Shown: one piece after another, positions 2 to 6,893 of the stretch
Numbering within the stretch: position 1 is the first letter of the stretch
Layout: every line of letters starts with the position of its first letter
IMG/VR virus record: IMGVR_UViG_3300028844_006574
Location: 1 to 64,000 of that record
Source of the DNA: a virus
DNA length: 64,000 nt
Direction: 5' to 3' (one strand)
Program-made: the position numbers and the translations under genes
Notes under the pieces: generated by a model
What the model was told of the DNA's origin: nothing
The model's input: only the letters and a program-made list of their open reading frames with translations
Databases searched by the model: none

Positions 2-664
2 TTTTTAGATCGTATCATAGAGAACAAACAACAAGGTAAATTCATCATCAGTATCGATAGTCTAGGTAATCTTGCTAGTAAAAAAGAGATGGAAGATATT
101 GAAAAGGATAAAAGTGCTGTTGATATGGGTACACGCGCCAAAGGACTCAAAAGCATGATGAGAACCTTGACGTTCAAAGCAGCTGAAGCCAACACAACAA
201 TTTTGTTCAGTAATCATACATATGACGACCCAGCTGCTATGTTTCCATCACTAGTGAAAAACCAAGCCGGTGGTAAAGGCCCGGTGTATCTAGCCAGTGT
301 GTTGGTACAATTAGCCAAACGAGACGAAAGAAACGATAAAAACAACGAGTCTGATCAAATGATAGCTGAAGCTAAAAATTACAGTGGTACCACTCTACGG
401 GCACTCACAGTGAAAAACCGCTTTGTACCACCTTTCTTAGAAGCTGAGATGTATTTAAATTTCAAAACTGGCCTAGACAAATATTCTGGTCTGTTGAATG
501 TCGCTGTGAATCATGGAGCTATTGTTCAAACAGGTAGCACATATCAATTACCTGACGGTACAAAACTAGGATATTACAAGCAGTGGAGAGATAAAGAAGA
601 AATATGGGAAAAGGTTTTACCAGTAATCGAAGAAAAATTAAAAGAAGATTATCAATACAATTAA
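2..664 (+). CDS. uvsX: UvsX recombinase (RecA-like), 5'-truncated by the window edge
   Basis: The reading frame is open from base 2, so the N-terminal half, including Walker A, lies outside the window. The visible part holds the Walker B strand (FIISIDSLGNL), then a RecA-type core with SNHTYDD, KNQAGGKGPVYLAS and a C-terminal LDKYSGLLNVAV segment. These match T4 UvsX (SLGNLASKKE, INHTYE, GGGTGPMYSAD, DPYSGLLDMA), recalled from memory. UvsX polymerises on single-stranded DNA and drives strand invasion in recombination-dependent replication, working with gp32, which is also in this window. The stop codon overlaps the stop of the convergent downstream gene by four bases (TTAA). The identification is secure; the start cannot be seen. 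Confidence 0.93.
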   Translation, partial: FLDRIIENKQQGKFIISIDSLGNLASKKEMEDIEKDKSAVDMGTRAKGLKSMMRTLTFKAAEANTTILFSNHTYDDPAAMFPSLVKNQAGGKGPVYLASVLVQLAKRDERNDKNNESDQMIAEAKNYSGTTLRALTVKNRFVPPFLEAEMYLNFKTGLDKYSGLLNVAVNHGAIVQTGSTYQLPDGTKLGYYKQWRDKEEIWEKVLPVIEEKLKEDYQYN

Positions 665-2166
665 GAGATCTTCCTATTGACCCATCCCGGGCGATTGAGT
701 ATTGCTTCAGACTCTTCTAGGTTAGCAGGAAATGAAACCCTCCCAGATGGCCCGCGGCTCAGACCCGAAAGTCCGGAACCACCCTTCCAACCACCGGTCT
801 GCATCGATTGAGCCATTCGTTTTGCTGCATTTATAGAATCTAGTTGCTGTGGAGTATATAAATTATCTGGTATAGGTACACCATTGACTGACGTGGGTAT
901 ACCTGCTTTGGTATTAAAATTAATCTTACTAGGGTCCACGTCTAACCCCATCCTACCAGCAAAATCTCTAGCTTGAGAGGATTGAGCTCTATATGTATCC
1001 ATCCTTCCCTCTAAGCGATCGAATTTATTCGCCAATGGGGACTTTGCTTTTTCCGCATCTCCTAGCGCTTGACCAGTATCAGCATTTGCACCATCAGCAC
1101 CACCGGTACCATCAGTACCATCAGCACCATCAGCACCAGGTGCCGATGCATCTCCCGGGCTCATCAATTTGTTGGCAATATTACCAACCATCTGTGAACC
1201 GGTGGTTATGGCACCTGTAGTCATCCCAGCGCTATGGGCAGCCGCACCAGCTTGTTTCAAAGCTTCCATTGGCTCAACGCCTTGTTTTCTTAGCTGGAAA
1301 TACTTGGGTACACCAGCCATACCTCCGCCAATTGCATAACCACTAGCAGCAGTACCGAGTACAGATATAAAAGCAGTACCCATGGCCATACTAGCCGCGC
1401 CAAATATTCCCATGGCTATAGCTTTGCTCATGTTTGGATTCTCCTTGACCCAGTTGACAATCTTACCAATCATGCCAGGTTCTTTGTTTCCATCTCCGGG
1501 TTGCGGTGGTGGTGGGTCTTTCAAAGTTGTTTGTTCTGGTGGTTGTTCCGGAGCAATGGATTGAGATGGTGGCGGGTCCTTCAAAGTGGTTTGCTCTGGT
1601 TCTGTTGGCTGCTCACCACTCACTCCTTGTTGAAAACCTTGTTTGACGTCTGACCAGGCATTTTTCACTCCCCGGACACCTTTACCAACACCCTTGGCTA
1701 TGTTACCCAACAAACCCTCGTTATGTAAATACAATATATGCTCTCTCAGCAACTCTTTATATGCGTCGTTACTCTCGTTTACCGGTGCACTGGTTATTTG
1801 CTGCTCCACTTGATCACCACCTTGTTGAGAAATCACTTGGTCTAGAGCACCTTGACCGTCTTGAGCAGCACTAGCTATTTGTACCAACGAATCCGGGTCG
1901 TTTTGTTTCAACCAATCAACAGCTTTTTGTATGATAGGTTGTAAAACTCTGCTATTGACAGTCGCACCAATGTTTTTTACAGCTCCACCGACTTTACCGG
2001 CCACGTTTTTCACAGTGTCCATCAAGCCTTCTTCAATTAATATTTGTTCTATTAAATGGTGTGTGTACTGTTCTTGTAAAAATGTCTCATACACTAATCG
2101 TTTATTACGCTGAGTTTCAGCCCTTCGATGAAAATTCTCCCATATTAGATGATTGTCTTTATTCAT
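661..2166 (-). CDS. Unknown protein, paralogue A of a tandem pair; possible internal virion protein
   Basis: 501 residues. It shares with the next minus-strand gene an N-terminal block (about residues 1-175) containing HLIWE-F, LIEQILIEEGLMDTVKNVAGKVGG and HILYLHNEGLLGNIAKG, and a Gly/Ala-rich hydrophobic block (about 240-320) with NPNMSKAIAMG and GVEPMEALKQAGA. Between them is a Pro/Gln linker with a repeated TTLKDPPP motif; the C-terminal third is Gly/Asp/Ala-rich. I do not recognise the family. IEE followed by Gly near residue 46 resembles the T4 gp21 prohead-protease cleavage pattern ([L/I]-x-E|A/G), so an internal head protein is possible but unproven. The coding sequence lies 17 bp downstream of its paralogue, probably in one transcript. 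Confidence 0.8.
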   Translation of the reverse strand: MNKDNHLIWENFHRRAETQRNKRLVYETFLQEQYTHHLIEQILIEEGLMDTVKNVAGKVGGAVKNIGATVNSRVLQPIIQKAVDWLKQNDPDSLVQIASAAQDGQGALDQVISQQGGDQVEQQITSAPVNESNDAYKELLREHILYLHNEGLLGNIAKGVGKGVRGVKNAWSDVKQGFQQGVSGEQPTEPEQTTLKDPPPSQSIAPEQPPEQTTLKDPPPPQPGDGNKEPGMIGKIVNWVKENPNMSKAIAMGIFGAASMAMGTAFISVLGTAASGYAIGGGMAGVPKYFQLRKQGVEPMEALKQAGAAAHSAGMTTGAITTGSQMVGNIANKLMSPGDASAPGADGADGTDGTGGADGANADTGQALGDAEKAKSPLANKFDRLEGRMDTYRAQSSQARDFAGRMGLDVDPSKINFNTKAGIPTSVNGVPIPDNLYTPQQLDSINAAKRMAQSMQTGGWKGGSGLSGLSRGPSGRVSFPANLEESEAILNRPGWVNRKIS

Positions 2167-2183
2167 TTGATATAATTTTAAAA

Positions 2184-3434
2184 TTAAATGATTTTTTTAT
2201 TCACCCAACCAGGTCTAGGTAGTATTGACTCTTCAAAATCATCAATCATTGAATCAACACCACTTCTCATTCCACCTACAGTGCCATATCGAACCGTACC
2301 ATCGGGGTTACGTACTACGTTGTTTACATAAGTTGAGTCGGTAGAAGATCCCGGCTGAACTGGTTGTTCTGCCCCGGCGGTCGGTTCAGCACCAGCACCG
2401 CCACCTCCACCCATCAATTTACCTGCAACATTCCCGGCCAGACCAGCACCAGTCGCTAGTGTAGCTCCTGACATACCACTGTCATGAGCGGTTGCACCGG
2501 CCTGTTTCAATGCTTCCATTGGCTCAACACCTTGTTTACGAAGCTCTAAATATTTAGGTACACCCTTCATACCACCGGCAATAGCATAACCTGCTGCAGC
2601 TTGTGTAAGAACTGTGGCGAAAGCTGCTCCTAGTCCCACGCTGGCCGCTCCCATGATACCCATGGCTATAGCTTTGCTCATGTTAGGATTCTCTTTGACC
2701 CATCCCATGATTTTGCTCAACACACCTTGTTTATCACCACCTGGTGCTGGTTGTCCATCCAGTGCAGGTTTATTTGCTACAGGTGATTCACCTGGTGCTG
2801 GTTGTCCATCCAGTGCAGGTTTATTTGCTACAGGTGATTCACCTGGTGCTGGTTGTTCACCACTCACACCCTGTTGGTAACCTTGTTTAATATCCTGCAC
2901 ACCACTCTTAATGGCCCCCGGGAGTTGTTTAGCTTTGTTAACTAACTTACCAGCACCCTTGGCTATGTTACCCAACAAACCCTCGTTATGTAAATACAAT
3001 ATATGCTCACGTAACATCTCTTTGTATTGAGCATCAAAGTCTTCGTTGATCGGAGCATTGACTATTTGCTGCTCCACTTGATCACCACCTTGTTGAGAAA
3101 TCACTTGGTCTAGAGCACCTTGACCATCCGATGCCGCGCTAGCCACTTGTACCAACGCATCCGGGTCGTTTTGTTTCAACCAATCAACAGCTTTTTGTAC
3201 GATGGGTTGAATCATTTTAGAATTGACTGTCGCGCCAATGTTTTTTATAGCCCCACCGACTTTACCGGCCACGTTTTTCACAGTGTCCATCAAGCCTTCT
3301 TCAATTAATATTTGTTCGATCAAATAACTAGTGTACTGTTCTTGAATTAAAGATTCATTGTAAATTCTTTTTTGCTTTTGAATACTAGCTCGGTGTTCAA
3401 ATTGCTCCCATATTAAATGTGTATCATTATTCAT
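2184..3434 (-). CDS. Unknown protein, paralogue B of a tandem pair
   Basis: 416 residues. The N-terminus (about 1-175) is nearly identical in pattern to paralogue A, including HLIWEQF, ILIEEGLMDTVKNVAGK and LHNEGLLGNIAKG. The hydrophobic Gly/Ala block (about 245-325; NPNMSKAIAMGIMGAAS) is also shared, so the pair arose by duplication. The linker holds a 17-residue tandem repeat beginning QPAPGESPVANK. The C-terminus (ILPRPGWVNKKI) matches the end of paralogue A (ILNRPGWVNRKI), so both ends are conserved while the middle diverges. A late-promoter-like ACTAAATA lies 8 nt upstream on the minus strand. Function unknown; a virion-associated role is inferred only from the promoter type and composition. 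Confidence 0.8.
   Translation of the reverse strand: MNNDTHLIWEQFEHRASIQKQKRIYNESLIQEQYTSYLIEQILIEEGLMDTVKNVAGKVGGAIKNIGATVNSKMIQPIVQKAVDWLKQNDPDALVQVASAASDGQGALDQVISQQGGDQVEQQIVNAPINEDFDAQYKEMLREHILYLHNEGLLGNIAKGAGKLVNKAKQLPGAIKSGVQDIKQGYQQGVSGEQPAPGESPVANKPALDGQPAPGESPVANKPALDGQPAPGGDKQGVLSKIMGWVKENPNMSKAIAMGIMGAASVGLGAAFATVLTQAAAGYAIAGGMKGVPKYLELRKQGVEPMEALKQAGATAHDSGMSGATLATGAGLAGNVAGKLMGGGGGAGAEPTAGAEQPVQPGSSTDSTYVNNVVRNPDGTVRYGTVGGMRSGVDSMIDDFEESILPRPGWVNKKII
2741..2856. repeat. 51-bp tandem repeat inside paralogue B
   Basis: Two complete 51-bp units begin at 2741 and 2792 (each starts ctggtgctggttgt), followed by a 14-base partial third unit at 2843. The period is a multiple of three and encodes the 17-residue QPAPGESPVANKPALDG unit on the minus strand, so copy-number change would keep the frame. 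Confidence 0.95.
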
Positions 3435-3471: not shown

Positions 3472-4182
3472 ATGAGAAAATGTGTTATTCCCGTGAGCGG
3501 TGGTTTAGATTCAAGTACTATACTGTATTATGTAAAGAAACAACGCCCGGAGTTCGAAGAAATTCATACACTCACGTTTGATTATGGTCAGAGACACAAA
3601 CGTGAGATCGACAGTGCAACAGACATAATACTGGGCCAGGTGGCTAGCCATCGTGTGACAAATGTACAGTTCATAAAAGAACTGTTCTCGACAAGCTCAC
3701 TAACGAATGATGATATAGATGTGGCTAAAACAGCTGATGTGTTAGGTGACCCACAAACTGTCAATTATGTACCCAACAGAAACATGATATTGTTGAGTAT
3801 CTGCACCGGTTATGCAGAGAGTATCGGAGCAGACACTGTATTCCATGGATCTGCGCAAGTGGATAGTGAAGCTGGTTACTGGGATGGTACACCCGAATTT
3901 TTAAAATGTTTAAACAACTTGAACGAACTGAACAGAAGAGACCGCGTCACAGTTGAGGCACCATTAATAGACAAATCAAAACAACAGATTATCAAAATGG
4001 GTCTAGAATGCGGTCTAGATTTTAGTAAAACATGGACTTGTTACGAGGGCGGTGAAGAGGCGTGTGGCAAATGCACTGCGTGCAGCAGCCGCATAAAGGG
4101 TTTTATTGACAATAAAAAACAAGACCCAGTCCCATACTCGATATACATACCCTGGGAACAATTTGGGTGTGACAAAATATAA
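3472..4182 (+). CDS. queC: QueC, 7-cyano-7-deazaguanine (preQ0) synthase
   Basis: 236 residues, usual length for QueC. The PP-loop ATP-pyrophosphatase motif SGGLDSS is at residues 9-15, followed by TFDYGQRHKRE and YVPNRNM, and the zinc site is formed by C190, C198, C201 and C204 (CYEGGEEACGKCTAC). QueC converts 7-carboxy-7-deazaguanine to preQ0 using ATP and ammonia. In phages preQ0 or its derivatives can replace guanine in DNA to evade restriction; a role in host tRNA is the alternative. The stop codon shares a base with the ATG of the next gene (TAATG), a class II amidotransferase, so the two are probably translationally coupled. No QueD, QueE, FolE or DpdA/TGT is in this window; they may lie elsewhere in the phage or in the host. 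Confidence 0.95.
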   Translation: MRKCVIPVSGGLDSSTILYYVKKQRPEFEEIHTLTFDYGQRHKREIDSATDIILGQVASHRVTNVQFIKELFSTSSLTNDDIDVAKTADVLGDPQTVNYVPNRNMILLSICTGYAESIGADTVFHGSAQVDSEAGYWDGTPEFLKCLNNLNELNRRDRVTVEAPLIDKSKQQIIKMGLECGLDFSKTWTCYEGGEEACGKCTACSSRIKGFIDNKKQDPVPYSIYIPWEQFGCDKI

Positions 4183-4865
4183 TGTGCGGTATATACGGAT
4201 CAACTAGTTACTCAGGATTCAAACAATTGCACGAGTTGAACGTGACTCGTGGCAATTTCGCCACCGGTCATCTCTTTGTGACTAACACCGGTGATTATGA
4301 GATAGAAAGATTCTCCGGTGAAAACAATTACGATGAATATCCAACCATGGAACAGGTGGGTCATTACAACATGTACATGGGTCACACCCAATCTCCAACT
4401 GGTTCAGTGAGAGATTTTCGATTCGATACATCACACCCGTTTGAAACTCGTAACTGGGTTGTGGCTCACAATGGTGTGTTGAACAATCACCAATCTCTAG
4501 CAGACGAATTCATAAAAAATTACAAATGTGAGGTTGACTCTATGATAATCCCAGAATTTATGGAGCATTTGATCCGAAACAAACCAATCAAAGACAATAT
4601 TGAATTGATGGACAATGTTGTCAAATCAGTATTAAATAGATTATCCGGAACTTACGCACTGTTTATATACAACAAAATTAACAACTTGATATATATAGCT
4701 CGTTCCGGAAGCACATTGTTTTACAACCCGGAAGATTTTGAATTCTCATCCGTAAAAACCGATCAAACCGTCCCGGTACCAGAAGGTATCTTATACAGAT
4801 ACAACGGTAGAAAATTTATTGAAATTTCACAATTGCAAATCAATTCATCATTTATTATATTTTAA
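4182..4865 (+). CDS. Class II glutamine amidotransferase domain protein, partner of QueC
   Basis: 227 residues with an N-terminal MCGIYG: Cys2 becomes the N-terminal nucleophile after Met removal. VAHNGVLNNHQ (near residues 87-97) supplies the Asn-Gly of the oxyanion site, and LSGTYALF and ARSGS follow the glutaminase fold of GlmS/PurF/AsnB. It is a free-standing glutaminase, without a synthetase or sugar-isomerase domain. The one-base overlap with queC mirrors the archaeal/phage Gat-QueC fusion, in which a class II amidotransferase and a QueC-like domain convert preQ0 to an archaeosine-type amidine. That assignment is inferred from context; a general amidotransferase or glucosamine-related role cannot be excluded. 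Confidence 0.85.
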   Translation: MCGIYGSTSYSGFKQLHELNVTRGNFATGHLFVTNTGDYEIERFSGENNYDEYPTMEQVGHYNMYMGHTQSPTGSVRDFRFDTSHPFETRNWVVAHNGVLNNHQSLADEFIKNYKCEVDSMIIPEFMEHLIRNKPIKDNIELMDNVVKSVLNRLSGTYALFIYNKINNLIYIARSGSTLFYNPEDFEFSSVKTDQTVPVPEGILYRYNGRKFIEISQLQINSSFIIF

Positions 4866-4867
4866 CT

Positions 4868-5569
4868 ATGAGCAACACAAAAATTGAACTCAAACCATTG
4901 CTGATTGTTTCAGCTACAAAACAAAAAGAAGAAAAAGAAACGAGATTAGGTGCGTGTAAGAATGCACTAAATAACCAAGCTAATTTTAGATTCATTAAAG
5001 AAAATGAAAAAGGTTTACCCAAAGTATACAATGATTTTTTCACTAAAAAGATAGAAAAGAAACACGATATTGTAATTTTTTGTCATGATGATCTGTACAT
5101 AGATGATTCAAAAATACGAGGTAAATTGTACAAGTCAATGTTTGTAGATGGTTATGATATTGTCGGACTAGCAGGAGCCAGTACATGTAACATATCAGAA
5201 GACAAACCAACACTATGGCACCTCATGAGCGACCGTCAAACATGGAGTGGTACTGTGTTTCATCCGTACGGAAACAACACTAATCAAGTGATGTCAACAA
5301 CATACGGACCCACCCCACAGAGATGTTTAGTACTGGATGGCTTGTTCTTAGCAGTGAACATCAAACGAGCCAGGGAAACCGGATGGCGATTCAACGAAAC
5401 ATTTAATTTTCATCATTATGACATAGCCGCATGTTTAGACGCGAATGTAAAGCAGATGAAAATGGGGACCTGCATGATACATGCTGTACATGACTCACCT
5501 GGTTTATCATCTCTTGAAGACCCTGGGTGGAAAGCTAGCTCTGATAAATTTTTAGAATTATACGGATAA
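4868..5569 (+). CDS. Glycosyltransferase-like protein, StrF/Glyco_tranf_2_5 type
   Basis: 233 residues. The core VIFCHDDLYI (near residues 69-78) supplies the acidic DD motif of a GT-A fold, followed by DIVGLAGAS, then VLDGLFLAVN, FHHYDIAACLDA and a C-terminal HAVHDSPGL segment. This HDD...GVAG...DG.f order resembles the small glycosyltransferase-2-like family related to streptomycin-biosynthesis StrF. The probable role is sugar transfer from a nucleotide sugar to an unknown acceptor. It starts 2 nt after the amidotransferase and ends 1 nt before the helicase, so it belongs to the early block; this makes a DNA-base or tRNA acceptor as conceivable as a virion acceptor. Confidence 0.75.
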   Translation: MSNTKIELKPLLIVSATKQKEEKETRLGACKNALNNQANFRFIKENEKGLPKVYNDFFTKKIEKKHDIVIFCHDDLYIDDSKIRGKLYKSMFVDGYDIVGLAGASTCNISEDKPTLWHLMSDRQTWSGTVFHPYGNNTNQVMSTTYGPTPQRCLVLDGLFLAVNIKRARETGWRFNETFNFHHYDIAACLDANVKQMKMGTCMIHAVHDSPGLSSLEDPGWKASSDKFLELYG

Positions 5570-5570
5570 A

Positions 5571-6893
5571 ATGATTGGTATAGACGATCAATTGTTTGAG
5601 CACGTGCTCATACACAACTGCATGTCAGATGATAGATACCTGGCTAGTATAATTGATTATTTAAAACCGGAGCACTTGAAGGACTCTAATATAAAACAAA
5701 CTTATACTTTGTTGTCAGAGTTTTATATAGAGCATGGAGAACTACCCACATCTACAGAAATAAAAACAAGATGTGATACAGATGAGCTCAAAACAGCAGT
5801 AAGAAATGTTGTAAGTTATATAAAAAACTTAGACAAAGACTACAACAAAGATGAGTTATACAAAAATACAGAACAATTCATAAAGGAACGTGCTGTATAT
5901 ACAACATTACTAGACGTGGTTGATCAAGGATCTTCCGGTGAGTTGGAACCTAGTGAACTTTTAACTAAATTCGAAACAGCATGTAACATAAACCTGAATG
6001 TTGATGTTGGTATCAAGTATCTAGATGATGTAGACTTACATGTTGACGACATGTTGAGAGAAGAAAAATACATGAAAACCGGTTGGGATTGGTTAGATAA
6101 AAAATTAAACGGAGGTTTTTTGCAAAATGGCCGCGCATTGTATGTACTAGCCGGTGAAACAAATGTAGGTAAGAGTATATTTTTAGGTAACATAGCTACA
6201 AACTTGTGTAAGCAGAACAAAAAGGTCTTGCTAGTATCATTAGAAATGTCTGAAATGTTATATGCAAAGCGTCTCAGCTCAAACATCGCGCAAGTACCTA
6301 TCAATGAAGCTCATTTAAGTACAGATTTTCTCAAAGAAAGTGTCAAAAGTTTCAAAACAAAGCACTCTGACGCTCAATTAGTCGTTAAAGAGTTTCCACC
6401 TAGTACTGTAACACCACAACAATTGACTGCGTATATTAAAAAATTAACGCAGACGGTTATGAAACCAGACGCTATTGTGTTGGATTATATCAATCTACTC
6501 AAAGGACCCACCGGTAGTAGTAGTTACGAGCAAATAAAGAAGATAACAGAGCAAGTGAGAGCCATATCATACAAGTTTGAATGTCCGATCATAACAGCAA
6601 CACAGCTCAACCGTTCCGGGTATAATGAGACAGACCCAGGGTTAGAATCTGTGGGTGAGAGTTATGGTATGGGTGCAACAGCAGACTGTGTTGTGAGTAT
6701 CTGGCAACGTGAAGAAGACGCGGAATTGAACGTTATAAACATGGGCATGATGAAAAACCGGTTTGGACCAAACTTTGGCACTTGCGCGATGAACATAGAT
6801 TACAGTACATTAACCGTGACTGAACAAGAGAATGTGAATGAAACAGAACAGATGAGTGAAACCATAGGGTCACTATCTATATTGAGTGATTGA
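5571..6893 (+). CDS. 41: Replicative DNA helicase, gp41/DnaB-like
   Basis: 440 residues, close to T4 gp41. The N-terminal half is the helical primase-interaction domain. The RecA-like core begins near residue 170 (TGWDWLDKKLNGGF), with Walker A GETNVGKS near 197-204, LVSLEMSE, Walker B AIVLDYINLL near 298-307, and TATQLNRSGYNE. gp41 is a hexameric 5'-3' helicase that unwinds the lagging-strand template and recruits the primase encoded at 13404. The C-terminus is acidic and Glu-rich. No separate promoter is visible, so it is probably cotranscribed with queC. Confidence 0.95.
   Translation: MIGIDDQLFEHVLIHNCMSDDRYLASIIDYLKPEHLKDSNIKQTYTLLSEFYIEHGELPTSTEIKTRCDTDELKTAVRNVVSYIKNLDKDYNKDELYKNTEQFIKERAVYTTLLDVVDQGSSGELEPSELLTKFETACNINLNVDVGIKYLDDVDLHVDDMLREEKYMKTGWDWLDKKLNGGFLQNGRALYVLAGETNVGKSIFLGNIATNLCKQNKKVLLVSLEMSEMLYAKRLSSNIAQVPINEAHLSTDFLKESVKSFKTKHSDAQLVVKEFPPSTVTPQQLTAYIKKLTQTVMKPDAIVLDYINLLKGPTGSSSYEQIKKITEQVRAISYKFECPIITATQLNRSGYNETDPGLESVGESYGMGATADCVVSIWQREEDAELNVINMGMMKNRFGPNFGTCAMNIDYSTLTVTEQENVNETEQMSETIGSLSILSD

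Follow-up and report, generated by a model that had tools for sequence, protein, structure and literature searches.

The analysed window covers positions 1-64000 of a virus record (G000) that is 91,375 bases long and comes from a T4-like environmental phage, and gene numbering is shared by the window and the record. Since the record opens inside a uvsX-like gene, it was taken as a fragment. The genes considered here lie partly in the window and partly beyond it in the same record:

3472..4182, plus strand: QueC (7-cyano-7-deazaguanine synthase), 236 aa; PF06508 E 3e-58, TIGR00364 above its cut-off
4182..4865, plus strand: Gat, a free-standing class II (Ntn) glutamine-amidotransferase-like protein, 227 aa; GATase_6/7, alignment, AlphaFold and Foldseek
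4868..5569, plus strand: glycosyltransferase-like protein, 233 aa; weak PF13712 match below its cut-off, conserved neighbour
5571..6893, plus strand: DnaB-like replicative helicase, given as context; PF03796 E 8e-30
71014-71820 (L005 8014-8820), plus strand, beyond the window: DpdA-like protein; 43-46% identity to the CP220 and immuto candidates
71829-72365 (L005 8829-9365), plus strand, beyond the window: formyltransferase; Formyl_trans_N domain
74074-74631 (L005 11074-11631), beyond the window: thymidylate-kinase-like gene, between DpdA and QueF
74615-75541 (L005 11615-12541), plus strand, beyond the window: two-domain QueF; QueF_N and QueF domains

The first-pass annotation had placed QueC and Gat in a replication operon with an overlap of a single base. 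Both observations were borne out, as the TAA stop codon of QueC and the ATG start codon of Gat share base 4182, and a DnaB helicase, an SSB-like protein, a 5'-3' exonuclease and a primase are encoded downstream of the pair. Between uvsX and QueC, the minus strand of the window carries two tandem genes (661-3434) that are about 65% identical over their common part. A NeuB-family gene and a cytidylyltransferase gene were observed at L006:5226-6068 and L006:6612-7286, suggesting nonulosonic acid synthesis by the phage.

The window QueC scored 184.7 bits against TIGR00364 (cut-off 150.3) and its alignment showed the complete canonical signature, consisting of the SGGxDS loop, YxQxHxxE, VPxRN and C(x)nCxxCxxC; the SGGLDSS sequence and the cysteines C190, C198, C201 and C204 claimed earlier are all present. 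The YPDC motif reads YWDG in this protein, with Tyr and Asp retained. Equivalents of residues Y35, R99, Y131 and Y189, which were found essential in E. coli QueC, are also retained, and the nitrogen donor of QueC is ammonia (PMC13329287). Only one of the four zinc cysteines is left in 17 of 58 Gat-paired QueCs and in the QueC of Flavobacterium phage immuto (L018:4608-5489), the other three being replaced by Asp, Ser/Thr and Ser. As the catalytic Tyr and Arg residues are kept in these proteins, the alignment suggests that some phages have zinc-free QueCs, while the window QueC retains all four cysteines.

The downstream protein had been described as a class II amidotransferase with Cys2 and an HNG motif, and this was confirmed by domain matches (GATase_6, 3e-8; GATase_7, 1e-6) and by alignment. 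Cys2, R23-G24, H96-N97-G98 and D119 are invariant in 59 of 59 aligned Gats, so that the class II signature of N-terminal Cys, RG, HNG, Asp and Ntn fold is complete. The AlphaFold model of Gat (pLDDT 87.7) matched the glutaminase domain of GlmS in Foldseek with an E value of 1e-12 and a TM of about 0.73, and EgtC was also among the matches. In GlmS, Arg73 contacts the glutamine carboxylate. The corresponding position is occupied by Gln (Gln70 in the window Gat) in 70 of 70 distinct environmental Gats, in the 59 aligned Gats and in all named copies, and glutamine may therefore not be the donor; the change could reflect a different mode of glutamine binding, an amide donor other than glutamine or a different reaction. 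Arg is retained at this position in the fused Gat of Enterobacteria phage 9g and in the PA11 amidotransferase. A PA11-like identity for Gat was rejected, since PA11-like amidotransferases keep the Arg and have an additional C-terminal region. The gene is under purifying selection (pN 0.27, pS 0.84, against L022) and evolves faster than its neighbours, with a median identity of 0.40 compared with 0.59 for QueC and 0.55 for DnaB.

All 13 QueC relatives in IMG/VR displayed QueC, Gat, the glycosyltransferase-like gene and DnaB in unchanged order. The viral scan returned no relatives with the Gat protein alone as the query and 453 with the Gat alignment as a profile, the best 80 of which were retained for locus comparison. 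The 91 viral Gat loci compared correspond to 70 distinct Gats, some contigs being present twice. QueC was located upstream of Gat on the same strand in 79 of the 91, with an insert of 0.4-2.8 kb between the two genes, often containing a minus-strand gene, in 31 of these 79 (about 40%). In some relatives, this gap is occupied by minus-strand genes whose starts resemble those of the 661-3434 genes. In 11 of the 12 loci without QueC, Gat lies no more than about 850 bases from the locus edge, whereas in L134 the 3 kb upstream of Gat carry no QueC. Gat homologues occur in 51 named phage records, and Gat directly follows QueC in all six named-phage clusters read; adjacent pairs were found in Schizotequatrovirus, pf16 and Vibrio 2.275.O. 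The pairing of QueC with Gat is not due to chance. The glycosyltransferase-like gene follows Gat in 90 of the 91 viral loci, often with tighter spacing than that between QueC and Gat, and the protein had no match in named phages.

Gat was found almost only in viruses. A narrow Gat motif, which missed the L167 pair (VHQQAPT), gave no match in the bacterial genomes scanned, and only one of 31 bacterial contigs with a related QueC, L167 (PBYV01000032.1), contained a Gat. L167 had been binned under an Acidimicrobiaceae bacterium. Its QueC-Gat pair is of the phage type, and it also gave FolE- and DpdA2-like matches, on account of which it may be a phage contig mis-binned in a metagenome.

The ancestry of the paired QueCs was assessed with a tree of 90 rows, in which the bacterial rows were chosen by similarity and archaeal Gat-QueC proteins were not included. 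All 59 Gat-paired QueCs formed one viral clade (support 97/96), whose sister group consisted of six Chloroflexota QueCs (support 97/96). The QueC portion of the 9g fusion protein fell outside the paired clade with strong support, but on a long branch and with archaeal fusions unsampled. Since the paired QueCs are one clade apart from the fused 9g protein, the pair seems to have been assembled independently, and the tree speaks against a recent split of a 9g-type fusion. The origin of Gat itself from such a split fusion was disfavoured by the tree position and by the Arg/Gln difference, within a sampling that excludes the archaeal fusions.

The proposal of the first-pass annotation that 7-deazaguanine chemistry operates on the phage DNA is well supported, as the record contains a DpdA relative (71014-71820). 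This candidate shares 43-44% identity with its CP220 counterpart and 46% with a protein of immuto that carries the annotation DNA guanine transglycosylase. We presume that it belongs to the DpdA3 subfamily. DpdA3 is the full-replacement class, and DpdN is a dPreQ1 formyltransferase; both DpdA3 and DpdN are reportedly treated by Cui et al. 2023. Neither a BLAST comparison of the candidate with nt-1 DpdA2 nor an hhalign profile comparison with DpdA1 and DpdA2 gave anything significant, and its AlphaFold model reached a pLDDT of 45. In CP220, dADG takes the place of all dG, a result cited in PMC8306585. The formyltransferase is a candidate DpdN on the basis of its Formyl_trans_N domain and its location within the DpdA/QueF cluster, and its match to PurN was weak (37 bits, cut-off 150). 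The QueF protein is of the bacterial type, with the QueF_N and QueF domains, the NADPH motif and the catalytic Cys and Asp all present; since it scored below the curated cut-off of TIGR03138, it was not called an equivalog. The block of DpdA, formyltransferase, kinase and QueF is shared by this record and four relatives, contig L037, G007 (230 kb) and G013 among them. In immuto and CP220, too, a thymidylate-kinase-like gene stands beside the respective DpdA candidate.

A search of the genome for FolE, QueD, QueE and DpdA had been proposed as a check, and only the DpdA relative was recovered, FolE, QueD and QueE not being found in the 91-kb record. All three are present in a 222-kb relative (G005), about 17-22 kb past uvsX and on the side of uvsX where the 91-kb record breaks off. 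The same relative carries a second, short QueF-domain ORF (G005:51192-51419, L171; 171 aa stop to stop), for which no counterpart was found in the 91-kb record.

The bacterial-type QueF points to preQ1, and the formyltransferase beside DpdA suggests that preQ1 is formylated. Taken together with the FolE, QueD and QueE genes of the relative, the DpdA relative, the formyltransferase and QueF point to preQ1 in the phage DNA, probably in a formylated form, and a preQ1-type base, rather than archaeosine, is the probable modification. Phage 6E351A (record 6E35.1a), which carries the QueC-Gat pair and QueF, contains 15% dPreQ1 with a mass of 295 (PMC12028318); the calculated masses of dG+ and dADG are about 308 and 309. 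QueF was detected in five of the six named pair-bearing phages tested, and nt-1, which has the pair, gave no QueF match. According to PMC6884629, nt-1 DNA contains dPreQ0, dADG and dG+ at 0.11%, 0.035% and 0.02% of G, and its dG+ is credited to an ArcS homologue. The Gat beside nt-1 QueC (L007:9383-10707) goes unmentioned in the sections of that paper examined.

Several known systems resemble the locus in part. In Schizotequatrovirus (KVP40.0124/0125, nt-1 VPFG_00172/00173 and 6E35.1a), QueC is followed directly by a Gat homologue in which, as in the window Gat, Gln stands where GlmS has Arg73, and KVP40 and 6E35.1a carry QueF, as the record does. However, these Gats are only 23-26% identical to the window Gat, and the phages possess DpdA2 instead of a CP220/immuto-type DpdA, with no adjoining formyltransferase or glycosyltransferase gene. 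In Enterobacteria phage 9g, the same two activities belong to a 7-deazaguanine DNA modification pathway (PMC6884629), but they reside in a single protein that makes dG+, with Gat first, an Arg in the Gat and a QueC outside the paired clade, whereas here two ORFs occur with QueC first. Phage immuto has DpdA, the formyltransferase, the thymidylate-kinase-like gene and QueF ordered as in the record, in a block adjoining QueD, QueE and FolE, although its QueC is about 26-28% identical, has no adjoining Gat and, unlike the window QueC, lacks zinc cysteines. The archaeal split GMP synthetase also combines a QueC-superfamily PP-loop ATPase with a separate downstream glutaminase gene (PMC13329287), but that glutaminase is class I (PF00117), whereas Gat is a class II Ntn protein with a changed donor site.

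The gene set, the synteny, the conserved catalytic residues and the common ancestry of the paired QueCs can all be read from the sequences. The best explanation as a whole, in which our confidence is evenly balanced, is that Gat feeds QueC within a preQ1-type phage DNA modification pathway. As QueC takes ammonia as donor, the most straightforward role for Gat would be that of a dedicated glutaminase-type partner. According to this explanation, the phage would make a 7-deazaguanine base and insert it into its own DNA. FolE, QueD and QueE, encoded by the missing part of the fragment or by the host, would lead to CDG, which QueC would convert into preQ0 with ammonia. We infer that Gat would serve as the glutaminase-type subunit of QueC, releasing the ammonia from an amide donor, for which glutamine is the likeliest candidate, and that the two would constitute a two-protein, glutamine-dependent preQ0 synthase. 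QueF would then reduce preQ0 to preQ1, the DpdA-like protein would exchange DNA guanine for the base, and formylation of preQ1 or dPreQ1 would probably fall to the neighbouring formyltransferase.

This explanation is favoured by the intact QueC signature, the use of ammonia by QueC, the adjacency of QueC and Gat, the single clade of paired QueCs, the FolE, QueD and QueE genes of the 222-kb relative, the Gat residues kept under purifying selection, the DpdA-formyltransferase-kinase-QueF block and the dPreQ1 of 6E35.1a, which has both the pair and QueF. On the other side, Gat distances correlate with those of QueC at r = 0.75 and with those of DnaB at r = 0.84, so that QueC is not singled out; many phage QueCs lack an adjoining Gat, as in immuto and CP220; and the QueC-Gat inserts, the Gln at the GlmS Arg73 position and the missing profile link of the DpdA candidate to DpdA1/DpdA2 also count against it.

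Among the alternatives, we consider it improbable that QueC and Gat jointly produce G+, the archaeosine amidine, in the manner of the fused 9g Gat-QueC, with dG+ in the phage DNA. The 9g fusion together with DpdA gives dG+ in DNA and the pair-bearing nt-1 has trace dG+ (PMC6884629), but the presence of QueF in the record and in most of the named pair-bearing phages tested, the dPreQ1 of 6E35.1a, the separate ancestry of the paired QueCs and the Arg of the 9g Gat versus the Gln of the paired Gat all argue against this reading. Moreover, an efficient G+ synthase should make dG+ dominate in nt-1, although the same source credits this phage with an ArcS, and the level in this phage without a QueF match is only about 0.02% of G. 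The archaeosine detail of the first-pass annotation is thus weakly supported and probably wrong.

A role of Gat as an amidase or amide donor enzyme on another substrate, in a later step on the base or with the glycosyltransferase, appears unlikely, though it is the likeliest of the alternatives. The replacement of Arg by Gln at the donor site, seen without exception, and the near-constant glycosyltransferase-like neighbour, often closer to Gat than QueC, are in its favour, and EgtC, retrieved by Foldseek, is an Ntn hydrolase and not an ammonia supplier; however, KVP40, nt-1, pf16 and 2.275.O have Gat beside QueC without the glycosyltransferase. We likewise regard as doubtful that Gat is not a glutaminase and works with QueC as a new amide-donor enzyme or base amidase, yielding an undescribed 7-deazaguanine derivative. 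It is very unlikely that the genes serve host metabolism or tRNA, through queuosine supply or PurN-like purine formylation, instead of phage DNA. Although QueC and QueF are queuosine enzymes too and the formyltransferase is weakly PurN-like, the DpdA relative in the block shares homology with the candidate from CP220, a phage in which dG is completely replaced (PMC8306585), and DpdA and QueF stand on either side of the formyltransferase in the record, in its four relatives and in immuto.

The QueC-Gat pair is already present in databases in KVP40-like vibriophages, with Gat mostly labelled as a hypothetical protein. The Gat partner subunit of a two-protein QueC-Gat was not found described in the literature searched, where no report of a dedicated ammonia-delivering QueC subunit was found either. 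The pair conserved in hundreds of environmental phage contigs would represent a QueC with such a subunit, or otherwise a new amidase. Gat goes unnamed in the well-studied KVP40 and nt-1, and it may be relevant to the mixture of dPreQ0, dADG and dG+ in nt-1 DNA. The predicted preQ1-type base may replace much of the guanine in the phage DNA, which bears on the escape of the phage from restriction.
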